46,348 nucleotides of DNA from assembly GCA_031290885.1 (NCBI GenBank), contig JAISLQ010000021.1, positions 1 to 46,348 on the forward strand, read 5' to 3'. The stretch's first letter is position 1. Each line of letters begins with the position of its first letter. Both the position numbers and the translations under genes were made by a program. Source of the DNA: Acidaminococcales bacterium (lineage in GTDB: Bacteria; Bacillota; Negativicutes; Acidaminococcales; JAISLQ01). Below the pieces are notes generated by a model. It made no database searches and was not told the DNA's origin. It worked only from the letters and a program-made list of their open reading frames with translations. Shown here one piece after another: positions 37,116 to 45,227 of this stretch.

Positions 37116-37192
37116 GGGGTTATAGCTCAGTTGGTTAGAGCGCTTCGTTGACATCGAAGAGGTCATAGGTTCGAGTCCTACTAACCCCACCA
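37116..37192 (+). tRNA. tRNA-Val (anticodon GAC)
   Basis: A complete cloverleaf: acceptor GGGGTTA/TAACCCC, D arm with AGCTCAGTTGGTTAGAGC, anticodon stem CTTCG/CGAAG around TTGACAT (anticodon GAC), T arm AGGTTCGAGTCCT, and an encoded CCA. Its 3' part from 37148 to 37189 is repeated perfectly at 45166-45207, making it the integration site of the element to its right. The insertion rebuilds a whole tRNA. Confidence 0.95.
37148..37189 (+). repeat. attL: 42-bp direct repeat in tRNA-Val
   Basis: Identical to 45166-45207. It covers the anticodon loop, T arm and 3' acceptor strand of the tRNA. Further upstream, TTAGAGCG (37135-37142) is also shared with the right copy after a 5-base mismatch block. 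Confidence 0.92.
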
Positions 37193-37381: not shown

Positions 37382-37916
37382 GCAAACTGGAAACGTCCCC
37401 CCGGAAATGGCTGCTGCTTTTTTAGCGCCCAGAGCGCCCAGGGGCGGACTTATTTTGTTTTTCTGGCCGGAGCTTGCGCCCTTTCTTTCCCCTTCCCAAA
37501 ATCAACGCTGCGGCGCGGCAGGGCAATTTAAAAACCGCTTGGGATTCGTATTAGCAATAAAAAAGTAAAAACCGCCTTTCCCTGAACAAGAAGCGGTTTT
37601 TTCTTAACTTCTTCCTTCTTTTTAGGGCAACCGCTTATCGGTAGCGCCCCTTTTGCTATTATTATACACCGTCCGATCCGGCATGTAAAATTTTCGTTGG
37701 GGGAAAAGCCAAAAATCGGCCGTGCGTCGTAAAGTCCTTGGGCGTCCGGTATTATCCGGCACCAGCCAAAATCGCAGGTGGGGGGGTGCTTATGGCTCGT
37801 ACTCCCCCAATCTGCGCCAAAAAATTCGCTCGCGTTTGGCGTTTTTCTTAACTTCTTCCTTGCTTCGCCCTTGCTTCTTTGCGATAGGGTACTTGCTTTC
37901 AAGTGCGCCGGTTAGC
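37382..37916. other. Non-coding left part of the element
   Basis: About 530 bases with no gene I can support. It contains the terminator at 37568-37602 and two copies of a 20-bp pyrimidine-rich direct repeat (37598-37617 and 37842-37861, TTTTTCTTAACTTCTTCCTT). The open frames here lack ribosome sites and known domains. Confidence 0.5.
37568..37602 (+). terminator. Rho-independent terminator
   Basis: AAAACCGC pairs with GCGGTTTT with six T at the end on the plus strand. On the minus strand four or five T follow as well, so it could also end the leftward satellite transcript about 310 bases after its last gene. Confidence 0.65.
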
Positions 37917-38742: not shown

Positions 38743-39099
38743 TTACTCGAAGCTTCCTTTTTTCGGCAAGTAGATGATTGCCGCTTGGCCTACTGCCTTT
38801 ATCGCCCCGCCGTTTTCCCCGGTAAGCTCCTGATGTACTTCGTCGCGCCATTTGTCGGGCTTTCGGTTTTTCAGCCAGAATATAATGGCCGCTGTGTCGC
38901 CGCCTGCGGCCTATTGATAAAGCGCGTTTTCCACCTGCCGGTCGGCGACGTCCTTGCCCTGTTTTAGGGCGTCCGAAATGTCCGAACAATGTTTTTTCCA
39001 CTCGCTTAAAGTGCTGCGCGATATGCCCAGCCCCGGAGCAGGGCAAGCCCCTCCGCCGGTCAGCCAATATGCGTTTTTGCCTTCTGCCATGCGTTTCAT
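38743..39099 (-). pseudogene. Phage TerS-like / small HTH protein, interrupted by an amber codon
   Basis: From the ATG at 39099 the frame reads 62 residues including GKNAYWLT, GISRSTLSEWKKHCSDISDA and LKQGKDVADRQVENALYQ, then TAG. The same frame continues without another stop as AAGGDTAAIIFWLKNRKPDK and WRDEVHQELTGENG to a TAA at 38743-38745. Both halves match one phage protein family (YWLT...MGIS--TLYEWKK...EVENAL-K-A-GGDT-A-IFWLKNRKPDKWRD), related to small terminase subunits. The helix-turn-helix region is also shortened by about 20 residues. It looks like a decayed gene; a sequencing error or suppression of the TAG is possible. Confidence 0.65.
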
Positions 39100-39126: not shown

Positions 39127-39417
39127 TCAGACTTGCGGGTAAGTGCCGAACACCGACGCGTACCGATAAAGTAAAATGCCCCTCGTGGCAAAATGGTTAA
39201 TATTGTGGTCGGATTTGCCGACTTTTTCAAAGAAATCTGCCGCCATGTCCTTCAAATCGTCGATGTTTATTGTCCATTCGTTGGCAAATTCTTCAAGTTC
39301 ATCCCGTATGCGGACGCGCTGTTCAAGGCTGATGAACGGATGCCGCTTGCCGGGGTAATAGCTTGGGTACAGTTCTTTCATGTACCAGAACATAAAATTT
39401 TGTATTCCGTCAATCAT
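39127..39417 (-). CDS. Satellite protein of unknown function, 96 residues
   Basis: An acidic, mostly helical 96-residue protein (MIDGIQNFMFWYMKELYPSY, then LEQRVRIRDELEEFANEWTI). AAGGGAG lies about 10 bases before the ATG, and it sits between the replication gene and the TerS-like pseudogene. I do not recognise it. By position it may take part in replication or packaging interference. Confidence 0.6.
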   Translation of the reverse strand: MIDGIQNFMFWYMKELYPSYYPGKRHPFISLEQRVRIRDELEEFANEWTINIDDLKDMAADFFEKVGKSDHNINHFATRGILLYRYASVFGTYPQV

Positions 39418-39478: not shown

Positions 39479-40342
39479 TCAATCCGGCGGTGGGTTGCCT
39501 GAATTAACCCCTTTGTCCGGCCTATCGCCCCGTAGCCATTCGCAAAACCCCGGCAAAGTGCAATCATGGCCGCCGCTAATGTATTGCCCTGCCATTTGCT
39601 TTAAAGCCTCGATATCACCTTCGTTGGCAGCGTTGCCCCAAAGCCTCAGCAGTTCATTGTGGCATTGCCTGATGGTATCGGTGGGCGTGTCCGGGTATCG
39701 CTTCCCCTTTGCCTGTAAATAGCAATCGTCCCTGAACCAGTGAAGGAACTCAATTATCTTTTCGTTGGGTTTTAAAAGGGCGCGTTCTTCGCCAGAAGAA
39801 CCATTATATATAATGGCACTCACATCGCTAACGCTCGTTCGTGCAGCCGCCGTTGATGATGAGCGCGCATTATCTATTTGGATAAGTTCTTTGGGTAAGT
39901 TAACTGGATAAGTTACTTGGGTAAGTTCTGTGTTAAGCTCCTTAACTACCCCAGTTAAGCTCCTTAACCAGGGTAGTAAAGCTCCTTGACTACGTGGTAA
40001 AGCTCCTTTACTACCTTTCACGCTGTCGGGAATATCATTTATTGATTTGTAATCGTTTTCAGGCCGTTTGGAAAAAAGCCACGGCAAACGGTAAAGGTTG
40101 CTTATCTGGTCGCCTTTGTTGAAACGATGTTCGCGCTTTATCCAGCCTGTTTTTTCCAATGTGTCTAAATTTGCGCAAACTGTTGGGCGGCTCATTCTGG
40201 TTAATAGCGCCAGCCTCGAAATCGATGGGAAAGCCTTGTCCTTTTCGTCGTTTACATGGTCGGAAATGGCGAAATAAAGCGCTATGCCATGCGTCGGGAT
40301 TCTCATGTCTTTCAGTATGTCGCTTGTAAATTTGTCGCCCAT
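39479..40342 (-). CDS. Phage/satellite replication initiator with internal origin repeats (lambda O-like)
   Basis: The 287-residue protein has an N-terminal winged helix-turn-helix (about 39-72: PSISRLALLTRMSRPTVCAN then LDTLEKTGWIKREH), as in DnaD/O-type replication proteins that recognise DNA repeats. The middle part (about 109-155) is low-complexity because its DNA consists of two repeat arrays (39879-40014). The C-terminal part (about 190-270) contains EKIIEFLHWFRDDCYLQAKG and DIEALKQMAGQYIS, suited to binding a helicase or loader. Origin iterons inside the initiator gene between two domains are known from lambda O. A ribosome site (GTGGAG) precedes the ATG. Five 11-bp repeats lie just upstream. 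Confidence 0.75.
   Translation of the reverse strand: MGDKFTSDILKDMRIPTHGIALYFAISDHVNDEKDKAFPSISRLALLTRMSRPTVCANLDTLEKTGWIKREHRFNKGDQISNLYRLPWLFSKRPENDYKSINDIPDSVKGSKGALPRSQGALLPWLRSLTGVVKELNTELTQVTYPVNLPKELIQIDNARSSSTAAARTSVSDVSAIIYNGSSGEERALLKPNEKIIEFLHWFRDDCYLQAKGKRYPDTPTDTIRQCHNELLRLWGNAANEGDIEALKQMAGQYISGGHDCTLPGFCEWLRGDRPDKGVNSGNPPPD
39879..39930 (-). repeat. Four tandem 13-bp repeats inside the rep gene
   Basis: TGGATAAGTT or TGGGTAAGTT plus three variable bases, starting at 39879, 39892, 39905 and 39918, in exact 13-bp register with A and G alternating at the fourth base. Because 13 is not a multiple of three, the encoded residues do not repeat, so selection acts on the DNA. It could be an unwinding element or a second binding array. 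Confidence 0.8.
39929..40014 (-). repeat. Four palindromic iterons inside the rep gene
   Basis: Each unit is an imperfect inverted repeat centred on CTC (39938-39940, 39960-39962, 39982-39984, 40003-40005), spaced 22, 22 and 21 bp. The best copies are GTGGTAAAG-CTC-CTTTACTAC and GTAGTAAAG-CTC-CTTGACTAC, with arms matching at 8 of 9 bases. Two helical turns between centres and dyad symmetry of each unit are just as in lambda ori. They lie directly beside the 13-mer array. Confidence 0.85.
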
Positions 40343-40380
40343 GACCGCAACTCCACTTCCCCAAACTTATCGTTGGCGCG

Positions 40381-40435
40381 GTTTCCTGCAAGTTTCCTGC
40401 TGGTTTCCTGCTGGTTTCTTGCGGGTTTCTAACGG
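40381..40435. repeat. Five tandem 11-bp repeats upstream of the rep gene
   Basis: Units starting at 40381, 40392, 40403, 40414 and 40425, consensus GTTTCCTGCTG, the last two more divergent. They lie 39-93 bases upstream of the rep start codon and may bind the initiator (autoregulation) or be part of the origin. Confidence 0.8.
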
Positions 40436-40458: not shown

Positions 40459-40487
40459 GGGGCGGGAAATAGCTGCCCGCCCCTTTT
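40459..40487 (+). terminator. Hairpin with short T-run, plus strand
   Basis: GGGGCGGG (40459-40466) pairs with CCCGCCCC (40476-40483), followed by four T. The T-run overlaps the -35 of the plus-strand promoter at 40486-40514. No plus-strand gene is known upstream. Confidence 0.45.
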
Positions 40488-40514
40488 GACAAATTGCCCT
40501 TGCGCTGGTAAAAT
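40486..40514 (+). promoter_or_regulatory. Consensus promoter pointing against the small ORFs
   Basis: TTGACA (40486-40491) and TAAAAT (40509-40514) with a 17-bp spacer. It points rightward, opposite to all genes nearby, so it would make an antisense RNA across the genes at 40546-40924. No plausible protein is encoded on that strand. Confidence 0.5.
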
Positions 40515-41056: not shown

Positions 41057-41305
41057 TCAGTAAATCTTTTTCATCTTTTGCGCGGCTCTGCTTTTGGGTT
41101 CGTAACTGCTTTCCGGCGGCTTGAATTTTTCCGGCGGTTCAATGACTTGTTCATGTTCTTTCAGCCAGTCCTCGAACGTCCCCATGCGTATCATAATCCG
41201 CGCCCCGACGCGAACCGTCGGCAACTTGTGTTCGCGTATCCAGCCGCGCAAGGCGTTTTCGGAAATCCCTTCCATCCCGGCAAGGTCTTTGATTGTAACG
41301 AGCAT
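41057..41305 (-). CDS. MerR/excisionase-like helix-turn-helix protein
   Basis: An 82-residue protein with the small excisionase/AlpA-type fold: MLVTIKDLAGMEGISENALR, GWIREHKLPTVRVGARIMIR, and then FEDWLKEHE. The helix-turn-helix is in residues 3-25 and the wing (VGARIMI) in 30-40. Such proteins steer integrase toward excision or switch on satellite genes. GGGGGG lies 6-10 bases before the ATG. One copy of the 24-bp repeat is in its upstream region. It is the first intact gene leftward after the Cro-like gene. Confidence 0.8.
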   Translation of the reverse strand: MLVTIKDLAGMEGISENALRGWIREHKLPTVRVGARIMIRMGTFEDWLKEHEQVIEPPEKFKPPESSYEPKSRAAQKMKKIY

Positions 41306-41963: not shown

Positions 41964-42144
41964 GGTATTCCACTTCGACGCCAAAAACTCGCGCCACCTT
42001 GCCCACCGTACGCGGTAGCATGGGTAATTCCCTCCGAATCTTTGTTACTGTCGGATTGCTTAATTTAGCGGCTTCCGCAATCGCCTTGATGGTGGTTTCC
42101 TTATCCGCAAGTAACAGCTCAAACTTTTGCCTGCTAATAATCAT
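41947..42144 (-). CDS. Cro-like helix-turn-helix regulator
   Basis: A 65-residue XRE-type DNA-binding protein: FELLLADKETTIKAIAEAAK LSNPTVTKIRRELPML with the helix-turn-helix near 20-42, ending RVFGVEVEYLVKAD. It is divergent from the larger repressor gene, the usual arrangement of a lytic (Cro/Str) versus maintenance (CI/Stl) switch. The ATG at 42144 has AAGGAG 8 bases upstream; the GTG at 42153 is less likely. Confidence 0.8.
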   Translation of the reverse strand: MIISRQKFELLLADKETTIKAIAEAAKLSNPTVTKIRRELPMLPRTVGKVARVFGVEVEYLVKAD

Positions 42145-42306
42145 GGCGCACACTCCTTTTTGTTACCGCTTAAGATAAATAAAATACTTAAAGCAGTATT
42201 TGCCTTTAATGGTAAATTATATTCCTTTAGTTGTCAATACCTTTTGGAATATTTTTATTGCCTTTTGCGGATAATTAATTTATTATAAGTATACGGGGTG
42301 TGTACT
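42145..42306. promoter_or_regulatory. Divergent operator/promoter region of the satellite switch
   Basis: An AT-rich 162-bp region between the two regulators. A rightward promoter for the repressor fits TTGCCT (42258-42263) and TATTAT (42281-42286), spacer 17. Similar dyads occur at 42199-42216 (TTTGCC-N6-GGTAAA), 42237-42250 (ATACC-TTTT-GGAAT) and 42258-42274 (TTGCC-N6-GGATAA). A further inverted repeat AAATACT/AGTATTT is at 42182-42201 next to the Cro-like gene. Confidence 0.55.
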
Positions 42307-42870
42307 ATGGCTTTTATTGATAACCTTAAAAGGCTTCGGGAAAAAAGCGGTCTAAATCGAACTGAATTGGCTCAAATGCTCGGCGTTCCTTACACAACAT
42401 ATGCAAATTGGGAAAAAGGAAGAGAACCCGGCATATATGCCCTGATGAAGCTGGCCGACTACTTCAAAATCAGCATTGACGAACTGATCGGCTATAAAGA
42501 ACCCACGCCGGAGGAAAAGGCCGAACGCGATTTCCAGCGCGCTTGTGCGTATTTATCAAAAGCCGGTTTTAAAGTTACAATTAGTAAAAATGATAATTTT
42601 GACGAAGATGACGAAGAGTGCGAATATGATGATTACAGGCGCATTGATGACAGGCGCGCTAAAATATCTTTATGGGCAAGCGAAGAATTCCGCCTTAAAC
42701 GCAAAAAGCTTAATGCTGATTTAATTGCTCGCGTTTTTAGTAAAAAAGATTTTTTAGATAATGTTGTCTCTTTTGTTAATGACATTATTATTAAGGAAAA
42801 CAATGAAGTAGCCATCATTGACGGTATCAAAAGGTGGTGTTTTGCTATGTTTAGCGCGAGTTTTGGATAA
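42307..42870 (+). CDS. CI/Stl-like repressor with XRE helix-turn-helix
   Basis: The 187-residue protein has an N-terminal XRE domain (IDNLKRLREKSGLNRTELAQ MLGVPYTTYANWEKG, residues 4-40; then KLADYFKISIDELIGY) and an acidic middle (DNFDEDDEECEYDDY). There is no recognisable LexA-type protease domain, so release probably depends on a partner protein rather than self-cleavage, as in Stl of staphylococcal islands. I chose the ATG at 42307; a GTG is three codons earlier. The last third (about 120-187) is AT-rich and lacks known motifs. Confidence 0.82.
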   Translation: MAFIDNLKRLREKSGLNRTELAQMLGVPYTTYANWEKGREPGIYALMKLADYFKISIDELIGYKEPTPEEKAERDFQRACAYLSKAGFKVTISKNDNFDEDDEECEYDDYRRIDDRRAKISLWASEEFRLKRKKLNADLIARVFSKKDFLDNVVSFVNDIIIKENNEVAIIDGIKRWCFAMFSASFG

Positions 42871-42991
42871 AAATGTTCTGTAAGGGGGATTACTGGCAAG
42901 GTAAGTGAACGGAGCGCACCCCCCACCACCGAAGCGCAAAAAGCCCCGCCGAAAAAGCGGGGCAGAAAGGGCGATGAAAGGAGTTAGCACA

Positions 42992-43549
42992 ATGAAAAAA
43001 ATAACCGTCCGCGATGTATGCGATTTTTTTATAGCCTTGGCGCAGGACGCCGGGGAACAGCTTACCCACATGAAATTGCAAAAACTCTTGTACTATGCCC
43101 AGGCGTGGCATTGCGGCATGTTTGGCAGGCCGCTTTTTGACGCTAAGTTCGAGGCTTGGAAATTCGGCCCTGTTTGCCCGGAAATTTACTGTCAATACAA
43201 GACGCTTGGCAACGCGAATATACCCTTTATCGGCGAGCATGACGAAAAAGAAGGTTGCTTGTCCGGGGTGGCCGAAAGCTTCTCGCCTGAAACATTGAAT
43301 TTTTTAAATGACATAGCGCGCGACTACATGAAATATACCGCCTTTCAGCTTTCCGCCATGACGCACAAAGAAAAGCCCTGGAAAGAACACGCGGCGGCGG
43401 CGGAAGAAATACCCGTCAAAGAAATGATTTATTATTATGGCTCGCTCGTACTCACGCCGGAAGAGGAAAAACGGGTCATAGAGGCGGAAAATGACATTAT
43501 GGCCGGCAAGGGCATAATCTGGAAACCGCGGTCATTGCAAAATGTATAA
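42992..43549 (+). CDS. Panacea-domain (DUF4065/SocA-like) antitoxin
   Basis: The 185-residue protein matches the Panacea/SocA/GepA family: VRDVCDFFIALAQDAGEQLT, HMKLQKLLYYAQAWHCGMFG, FDAKFEAWKFGPVCPEIYCQ. The LQKLLYYAQ and A-K-G-PV boxes are diagnostic. Panacea domains are known as antitoxins for many unrelated toxins. The start at 42992 follows AAAGGAG (42977-42983). Its end overlaps the RelE-like gene by 8 bases, so the pair is a type II toxin-antitoxin unit with antitoxin first. Confidence 0.85.
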   Translation: MKKITVRDVCDFFIALAQDAGEQLTHMKLQKLLYYAQAWHCGMFGRPLFDAKFEAWKFGPVCPEIYCQYKTLGNANIPFIGEHDEKEGCLSGVAESFSPETLNFLNDIARDYMKYTAFQLSAMTHKEKPWKEHAAAAEEIPVKEMIYYYGSLVLTPEEEKRVIEAENDIMAGKGIIWKPRSLQNV

Positions 43550-43808
43550 AGTGGAGCTTTCGCCTGCCGCCTATCAGCAAAAGCGCTCATTGCGCAAACT
43601 GGTAAGAGAACAGATAGAGGCGGCATTAGACGAGCTTGCGGCCAACCCATATACCGAAAAATATGACGCACAGCCAATGCGGGGGGATTTAGTTCGGTAT
43701 CGTTGTGTTGTCGGTAGCTATAGGATTATATACAGGATAGTCGATAATAGCTTATGGGTCTACGTCTTGGAAATTGGGCATAGGGGTACTATTTACGAAA
43801 GAAAATAG
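43542..43808 (+). CDS. RelE/ParE-family toxin
   Basis: The 88-residue protein has the RelE fold pattern: YKVELSPAAYQQKRSLRKLV, a middle helix, then MRGDLVRYRCVVGSYRIIYR with the basic residues used for mRNA cleavage in RelE, and VLEIGHRGTIYERK, as in the RelE end G-R-x-x-YE. It is likely to block translation when unbound. It starts inside the end of the Panacea gene, its probable antitoxin. ParE-type gyrase inhibition is the alternative. Confidence 0.85.
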   Translation: MYKVELSPAAYQQKRSLRKLVREQIEAALDELAANPYTEKYDAQPMRGDLVRYRCVVGSYRIIYRIVDNSLWVYVLEIGHRGTIYERK

Positions 43809-43879
43809 CCGCGAAGAGCCAATGCCCGCCCTGCGTATTTCCCCTTATCGGTCAATATAAAAACAGGCAGGTGTCCATA

Positions 43880-45028
43880 ATGCCGGCAAAAATCCAAAAA
43901 CGCGGCAACAACTCTTATTTGCTGACCGTGCCGGGCGGCTACGAAAACGGCAGGCAGAGAAAGTTCACCAAAACCATAAAGGCGGACAACGTAAACCAGG
44001 CGAAAAAGGAATATAATCTTTTCGTCGCCGAATGTATGACCGGGAAAGCGCTGCCGGCTTCAACGCCAAAAATGACGCTGCAACAGTTTTATGCCTACTG
44101 GAAAGACAAATATGCCATGCCCGCCCTTGCGCATAAAACAATCGCCTGCAATGACTTCGTGGCGGATAGAATACTTGCCGCCCTCGGCCATCTGCAAATA
44201 CATAAAATTACGCCTTTTCATTGCCTTGAACTTCTTGACCAACTGCGGCGGCCGGACATCGGCGCACACGGCAAGCCGCTTTCTTCGGCAACCATACACA
44301 AGCATTACGCGCTTTTGAACGAACTTTTGACCTATGCCGCCAAGTGGGATTTTATACCCTTTAACCCTTTGGCGAAAGTTGATCCGCCCAAAAGAAAAAC
44401 CGCGCCGAAGGAACTGCCTTCCCCTGATCGGGTATCGCTGTTTGTTTCGCTCATTATGGGCAAGGCAGTGCTCAAACACCAAATTTGGGTATTGCTGGCT
44501 TTCCTGCTCGGGCTACGCCGCGAAGAAATATTCGGGCTGAAAGTGCAGGATATAGACTTTGCCGCCCAAACATTAAAGATAAGCCGGGCGGTTGTCTATG
44601 TTCACGGCCTCGGCAATGTTATAAAAGACACAAAGACAGCCGCCGGGCAAAGGGTTTTATCCCTGCCGCCCGTGCTTGCCCGGCTTTTGAACGAATACGT
44701 AAGCCGCCCGCAGCAAATTAAAGTGGTTTCCTTTGGTCGCTGGCTGTTCGCCAAGGGGAACGGCGAACCCGGCCAGCCGGACGCGTTTAACAACTTCCTC
44801 AAACGCTTTGTAAAAAAACACTCCCTTCCGGGCATAACCCCGCACCTTCTGCGCCACATGCACGGAAGTTATTTAATGCGCTCGGGCATTGACCTTGCCG
44901 CGACATCTCACCAACTCGGCCACACAAAAAAATCCTTTACGGCGGACACTTATATTCACGTAACGGAACGGGTGGAAACTCGGCCGGCGGCGGTAATGCA
45001 GAGCGTGTTTGATACTTTAGTTAAGTAA
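43880..45028 (+). CDS. int: Tyrosine recombinase (element integrase)
   Basis: The 382-residue integrase has an N-terminal arm-binding domain (1-60), a SAM-like core-binding domain (about 65-165) and a catalytic domain with the full set: Arg213 (GLRREE), Lys252, His322 and Arg325 (HLLRH), His348 (HQLGH) and nucleophile Tyr358 (DTYIHV). It lies 137 bp from the right att repeat, so it is the enzyme that inserted the element into tRNA-Val. I chose the ATG at 43880; a GTG at 43871 is possible. Confidence 0.95.
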   Translation: MPAKIQKRGNNSYLLTVPGGYENGRQRKFTKTIKADNVNQAKKEYNLFVAECMTGKALPASTPKMTLQQFYAYWKDKYAMPALAHKTIACNDFVADRILAALGHLQIHKITPFHCLELLDQLRRPDIGAHGKPLSSATIHKHYALLNELLTYAAKWDFIPFNPLAKVDPPKRKTAPKELPSPDRVSLFVSLIMGKAVLKHQIWVLLAFLLGLRREEIFGLKVQDIDFAAQTLKISRAVVYVHGLGNVIKDTKTAAGQRVLSLPPVLARLLNEYVSRPQQIKVVSFGRWLFAKGNGEPGQPDAFNNFLKRFVKKHSLPGITPHLLRHMHGSYLMRSGIDLAATSHQLGHTKKSFTADTYIHVTERVETRPAAVMQSVFDTLVK

Positions 45029-45062: not shown

Positions 45063-45165
45063 CAAAAAAAGAGGCCAAAACCCGCATAAATACGTACAGC
45101 GCTTTTCATGCCCAAAACGAGCAAAAGCCGCTTCACAGGCTGATTATAGCCATTAGAGCGGCTTT

Positions 45166-45207
45166 TTGACATCGAAGAGGTCATAGGTTCGAGTCCTACT
45201 AACCCCA
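45166..45207 (+). repeat. attR: 42-bp direct repeat of the tRNA-Val 3' half
   Basis: Perfect copy of 37148-37189. Upstream of it, TTATAGCCATTAGAGCG (45144-45160) is a shortened and mutated version of the tRNA 5' half, so this end holds a tRNA-Val pseudo-copy rather than the 3' half alone. Confidence 0.92.
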
Positions 45208-45227
45208 TCAAAATGTGATTGTTATTT

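Follow-up and report, generated by a model that had tools for sequence, protein, structure and literature searches.

What are three families of short tandem repeats doing in and just before a replication initiator gene? The question is raised by a contig of an Acidaminococcales bacterium (JAISLQ010000021.1), and the whole stretch analysed here, 46,348 nucleotides, is referred to as the window. It is highly probable, in our view, that a small integrated element of phage descent has its replication origin at 39879-40014, within the gene that encodes its initiator, the iterons being bound and the 13-mers melted. The features concerned are these:

39479..40342, minus strand: initiator gene, 287 amino acids, O-like (PHROG 270) with an HTH_36 N-terminal domain, from the ORF list and profile matches
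39879..39930, minus strand: four 13-mers containing AACTTAYCCA, spacing 13, 13 and 13; proposed DNA unwinding element
39929-40014, minus strand: palindromic iteron array, four copies, spacing 22, 22 and 21
39997..40011, minus strand: iteron 1, GTAAAGGAGCTTTAC, 12/15 self-complementary
39976..39990, minus strand: iteron 2, GTCAAGGAGCTTTAC
39954..39968, minus strand: iteron 3, GTTAAGGAGCTTAAC
39932..39946, minus strand: iteron 4, GTTAAGGAGCTTAAC, identical to iteron 3
40380..40435, minus strand: five 11-mers of the CAGCAGGAAAC type, spacing 11, that is, one helical turn

An earlier note on this DNA had described three repeat families, and we found all of them at the places and spacings it gave, the fifth 11-mer being degenerate. 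Tandem z-scores of 8.2 (period 11), 7.4 (period 13) and 6.3 (period 22) all lie above 5.8, the highest value in 500 shuffles of the same 1042-bp region with dinucleotides preserved, and in the rest of the window the score never exceeded 5.7. The motif AACTTAYCCA has four exact copies, 13 bp apart and all within the 13-mer array, and none elsewhere in the whole window; matches in a search for iteron-like pairs around GTWAAGGAGCTTWAC were concentrated at the origin block. Self-complementarity of 12/15 is present in three of the four iterons, which are spaced 21-22 bp apart, and the 13-mer array adjoins the last of them. This array is only moderately rich in A+T (65%), and it coincides with the 60-mer of lowest nearest-neighbour Tm in the 1.26-kb region (39871-39930).

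The initiator matches replication-initiation families of PHROG in profile searches (PHROG 270, E 1.3e-11, residues 9-150). Its AlphaFold model has a confident winged helix (wHTH) at approximately residues 11-90, no confident structure over residues 92-194 and low-confidence helices over residues 187-270. Iterons and 13-mers together occupy nt 332-464 of the 864-nt coding sequence, where the former encode approximately residues 111-137 and the latter approximately residues 138-155, both within the predicted disordered linker. This agrees with the earlier note, which placed the two arrays in coding sequence that separates the DNA-binding part from the C-terminal part; the linker is predicted to join the winged-helix domain to a helical C-terminal region. 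Homologues of the protein are weak: no close one was present in the viral_contigs, genome_contigs, phages or plasmids collections, and the best phage match was one Vibrio phage protein (29.5%). No solved structure matched the initiator by sequence, and a fold search (Foldseek) with the model returned generic winged helices only, none with E <0.001; the Rep-DNA complex 5kbj was a weak match (E 4.5e-3) and generic MarR folds scored equally.

The repeats are a property of the DNA. The iterons fall in codon phases 0, 2, 1 and 1 and the 13-mers in phases 1, 2, 0 and 1, so that all three phases are occupied; because of this, successive copies encode different peptides and the repetition is in the DNA, with no protein repeat. 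The window gene is without a close homologue, and synonymous changes were counted in relatives, over codons whose residue is unchanged. Between Sporomusa ovata and S. silvacetica there were 0/56 synonymous changes in the origin block, 15/90 before it and 35/104 after it, that is, none in the block against 50/194 codons in the flanks (Fisher p 8e-7). In a second, metagenomic group (L138), 0-1 synonymous changes were counted in 19-26 block codons, compared with 17-41% elsewhere. Low synonymous change is what the earlier note had named as the check on whether the arrays of related initiators are conserved at the DNA level, and these counts, a comparison of sequences, favour conservation of the relatives' block as DNA and not as protein. 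A reading of the arrays as protein repeats was rejected on the codon phases here together with the synonymous constraint in relatives.

The arrangement recurs in other members of the family. At the thresholds used, 94 of 381 genomes in the class, Negativicutes, and 87 of 399 in the phylum had a PHROG 270 initiator. Tandem repeats within the gene, at ~300-450 nt, are common among the initiators of the class, and the relatives' iterons lie at the same place in the initiator gene. Iteron-like repeats were called in 36 of 56 surveyed initiators, by a crude detector some of whose calls are probably wrong, so the survey counts are indicative. Across the 36 loci with iterons, a tandem array of 10-16 bp (z at least 4) followed the iterons in 21 and preceded them in 5 (Wilcoxon p 4e-4), and the period of about half of the following arrays is not a multiple of three. 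At L029 (G116:C110), a related initiator region, the iterons are palindromic, and an A+T-rich stretch comes after them, along with several clear DnaA boxes (TGTGGATAA).

In distant relatives, whose iterons are unrelated, AACTNNYCCA or AATACCCA-like variants occur again immediately 3' of the iterons. In the window, in Pelosinus (L002), in two Sporomusa (L012, L013) and in G316 (L028), palindromic iterons have arrays of AACT-NNN-CCA at 13-15-bp spacing right on their 3' side; elsewhere in 737 kb of both-strand sequence there was a single such cluster. Further AACT..CCA groups, both PHROG 270 by profile, are L060 and the metagenomic L138-like group (iterons TGACACC..GGTGTCA). They came from a collection scan for AACTWWYCCA pairs in which, among the matches listed, most were scattered and away from iterons; we kept only matches that lay behind iterons in PHROG 270 genes. 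Several following arrays in the survey read AATACCCA or AACAATACCCA. TACCCA was seen 11 times 3' of iterons against 0.9 expected (approximately twelvefold enrichment), and TAYCCA pairs were present at 4 of 36 loci compared with 0 in the 5' control. Because the pairs reach only 4/36 loci, we regard the motif as a theme with variants and not as a strict consensus; the AACT..CCA form is present in ~10% of sampled PHROG 270 loci, the rest having other arrays or none.

Two other explanations of the in-gene arrays have to be weighed against a phage-type origin. The repeats do fall in a linker without predicted structure, where sequence may change freely, and they might be an accident of low complexity with no role as DNA. 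Yet spacings of 13 and 22 shift the frame at each copy, synonymous change is nearly absent in relatives, and where the motif recurs it stands in different reading frames and encodes different peptides, all of which makes an accident scarcely credible. A more serious proposal takes the 13-mers for a series of DnaA boxes at which host DnaA opens the origin, with no phage-type unwinding element: two copies read TTATCCA, the DnaA-box core, and true TGTGGATAA boxes follow the iterons in L029. The other two copies, however, carry TTACCCA, the best match of any 13-mer to TTATCCACA is 8/9 (TTATCCAAA), and the relatives drift away from the DnaA box, to TATTCCA, AATACCCA or ACTATCCCA. We consider opening by DnaA improbable, though less so than an accident of the linker.

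If 39879-40014 is indeed an origin of the phage type, its working may be sketched by analogy with lambda, SPP1 and RK2, from which each of the proposed steps (binding, melting, strand capture, helicase recruitment and origin activity itself) is drawn. Dimers of the initiator would bind the four palindromic iterons through the N-terminal winged-helix domain, and the resulting nucleoprotein complex would strain the adjoining 13-mer array until it opens. The opened 13-mers would probably be held single-stranded by the initiator or by another factor, while the C-terminal region of the initiator may recruit the host helicase machinery.

In lambda, the origin lies in gene O and comprises inverted-repeat iterons and an adjoining 40-bp A+T-rich tract (PMC5043065); O also binds single strands rich in A+T, and the minimal unwinding unit consists of two iterons together with the A+T-rich region (PMC7466680). 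The sequence characters of a lambda-O-type origin were found at our locus: repeats in the initiator gene between its domains, inverted iterons ~20 bp apart and an adjacent, easily melted A+T-rich tract. Both origins have four inverted-repeat iterons and then an A+T-rich unwinding tract within the initiator gene (the lambda iterons are annotated in J02459). The lambda tract differs in being purine/pyrimidine-asymmetric (PMC5043065), with no obvious 13-mers in its sequence, whereas the window has 13-mers; and the likeness to lambda O is one of arrangement, the window initiator being similar to the broader O-like/PHROG 270 families. SPP1 oriL, with direct repeats bound by the replisome organizer gp38 and an A+T-rich DUE inside gene 38 (PMC6316719), is likewise an in-gene origin in a phage of Bacillota, and here the likeness is drawn from the published description. 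In RK2 oriV, four 13-mers serve as the unwinding element beside the iterons and TrfA binds the single strand (PMC4081077), and iterons beside 13-mers also resemble oriC (PMC4081077; PMC5043065). The window shares with RK2 oriV and E. coli oriC a 13-mer array next to initiator sites, but the RK2 13-mer is different (TAAACnTTnTTTT) and neither the RK2 nor the oriC array is inside an initiator gene. Plasmids of the RepA_N type such as pSK41 have their origin in the centre of rep, flanked by the parts that encode a winged-helix N-domain and a DnaD-like C-domain (PMC5703833), a position like that found here, although our initiator had no match to the RepA_N family in Pfam.

The locus is a member of the in-gene-origin kind represented by lambda O and SPP1 gp38, with an RK2-like 13-mer unwinding element. 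The comparison of the earlier note with lambda O, as an origin embedded in its initiator gene, is supported by the position of the iterons in relatives and by the DNA-level constraint. Its suggestion that the added 13-mer array makes an undescribed layout does not stand, since RK2 oriV and oriC (PMC4081077, PMC5043065), the lambda tract and SPP1 oriL (PMC6316719) all precede it.

Melting of phage-type origins is well studied in few systems. For an unwinding-element motif that recurs across PHROG 270 we found no description in the open-licence literature, and such a motif across one initiator family is possibly new. We offer only tentatively the wider idea that PHROG 270 initiators share a tandem core (AAC..TAYCCA / AATACCCA) as a family-wide unwinding code with a conserved reader, the iterons diverging freely and the upstream 11-bp array adding a control layer here; the reader would be either a surface of the initiator itself that binds single strands or a protein of the host. 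If the motif is conserved across this large and mostly uncharacterised family, it would make both the melted strand and its captor approachable from sequence, and thousands of phage and satellite origins could be found by sequence alone.

The 11-mers are a different matter. They end 37 bp upstream of the initiator ATG, in the following surroundings:

40459..40487, plus strand: G+C-rich hairpin with a trailing TTTT; it lies just upstream of the 11-mers and overlaps the -35 of the next site
40486-40514, plus strand: strong promoter-like site, on the strand opposite to the initiator
41057..41305, minus strand: excisionase/AlpA-like HTH_17 protein, 82 amino acids, upstream of the initiator and in the same direction

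Our guess is that the role of the 11-mers is most likely regulatory: they would form an operator, with a site at every helical turn, outside the minimal origin. Their binder could be the excisionase/AlpA-like protein, polymerising with one subunit per turn and so tying excision to replication. The direct repeats are spaced by exactly one helical turn, the candidate is encoded upstream of them in the same direction, and wHTH and MerR-like proteins (BldC, P2 Cox, RdfS) form DNA filaments, in BldC with one turn per subunit (PMC11963761). Near the att sites, however, there is no second 11-mer array, only scattered matches with two mismatches, and we give this identification somewhat less than even odds. 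Less likely still is that the 11-mers form a true third part of the origin, as further iterons to which the initiator would bind for copy control or autoregulation. They stand directly before the initiator gene, and in plasmids such as pSK639 Rep sites are found near the rep promoter (PMC5703833); but the 11-mer GGAAACCAGCA is unrelated to the iteron GTAAAGGAGCTTTAC and is not palindromic, and no array of this kind precedes the initiators of the relatives examined, that of L023 being an unrelated 23-bp array. No second 11-mer array was found in the window's own genome, and a collection scan for paired 11-mers gave ten matches, all single pairs in unrelated sequence.

The origin block belongs to an integrated element of ~8.0 kb, whose remaining features are:

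37116-37192: tRNA-Val
37135..37192, plus strand: attachment repeat 1, the 3' part of tRNA-Val(gac), a 58-nt direct repeat 91% identical to 45153-45210
38788..39073, minus strand: broken small-terminase gene (terS), with an internal 37-bp deletion and an in-frame TAG
39127-39417, minus strand: orphan 96-amino-acid protein, directly after the initiator
42298..42870, plus strand: cI-like repressor, divergent from the replication side
42905-43808, plus strand: gene for a Panacea-domain protein (SocA-like antitoxin) and, overlapping it, one for a ParE/RelE-like toxin, adjoining the integrase
43871..45028, plus strand: tyrosine integrase
45153..45210, plus strand: attachment repeat 2, which with repeat 1 bounds the element

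The minus-strand genes, divergent from the integrase side, encode a small HTH protein, the HTH_17 protein, the initiator, the 96-amino-acid protein and the terS remnant. Within the order, relatives of the integrase and excisionase are distant only. The Panacea-domain and ParE/RelE-like genes are likely a toxin-antitoxin pair of the element. The 96-amino-acid protein occurs in its own genome and had no relative in 380 other genomes of the class; from its position, a role as helicase loader is conceivable. The divergent promoter region 42140-42310, which separates the repressor from the small HTH gene, is A+T-rich with a weak 21-bp periodicity (z 5.5), and its periodic sites are probably operators.

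PICI have integrase and repressor genes divergent from excisionase, initiator and terS, as this element does, and profile searches recognised no capsid, tail or lysis genes in it, small ORFs aside. PICI are, however, typically 12-15 kb in size, with the origin immediately 3' of rep and two iteron sets, one on either side of an A+T-rich region (PMC6092414), whereas this element is ~8.0 kb, its origin-like block lies inside rep with one iteron set and its terS is broken. Since it departs from the published criteria in its size and in the position of its origin, we do not file it as a PICI. The terS remnant (phrog_309, E 1e-33, one TAG) matches an intact prophage terS in the same genome (contig C36:3401-3733) over 188 bp at 97.9% and 50 bp at 98%, 238 bp in total. 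Such identity, ~98%, suggests recent exchange with a resident helper or a relative, and a broken terS so like that of the resident prophage suggests that the element is a phage satellite or a prophage remnant. Its gene order together with the prophage-derived terS makes a satellite lifestyle plausible, the alternative being a shrunken prophage remnant. Within the element, 115 bp at 37554-37666 are 75% identical, in inverted orientation, to a stretch 130-240 bp upstream of terS on C36, and are possibly a packaging or regulatory site.
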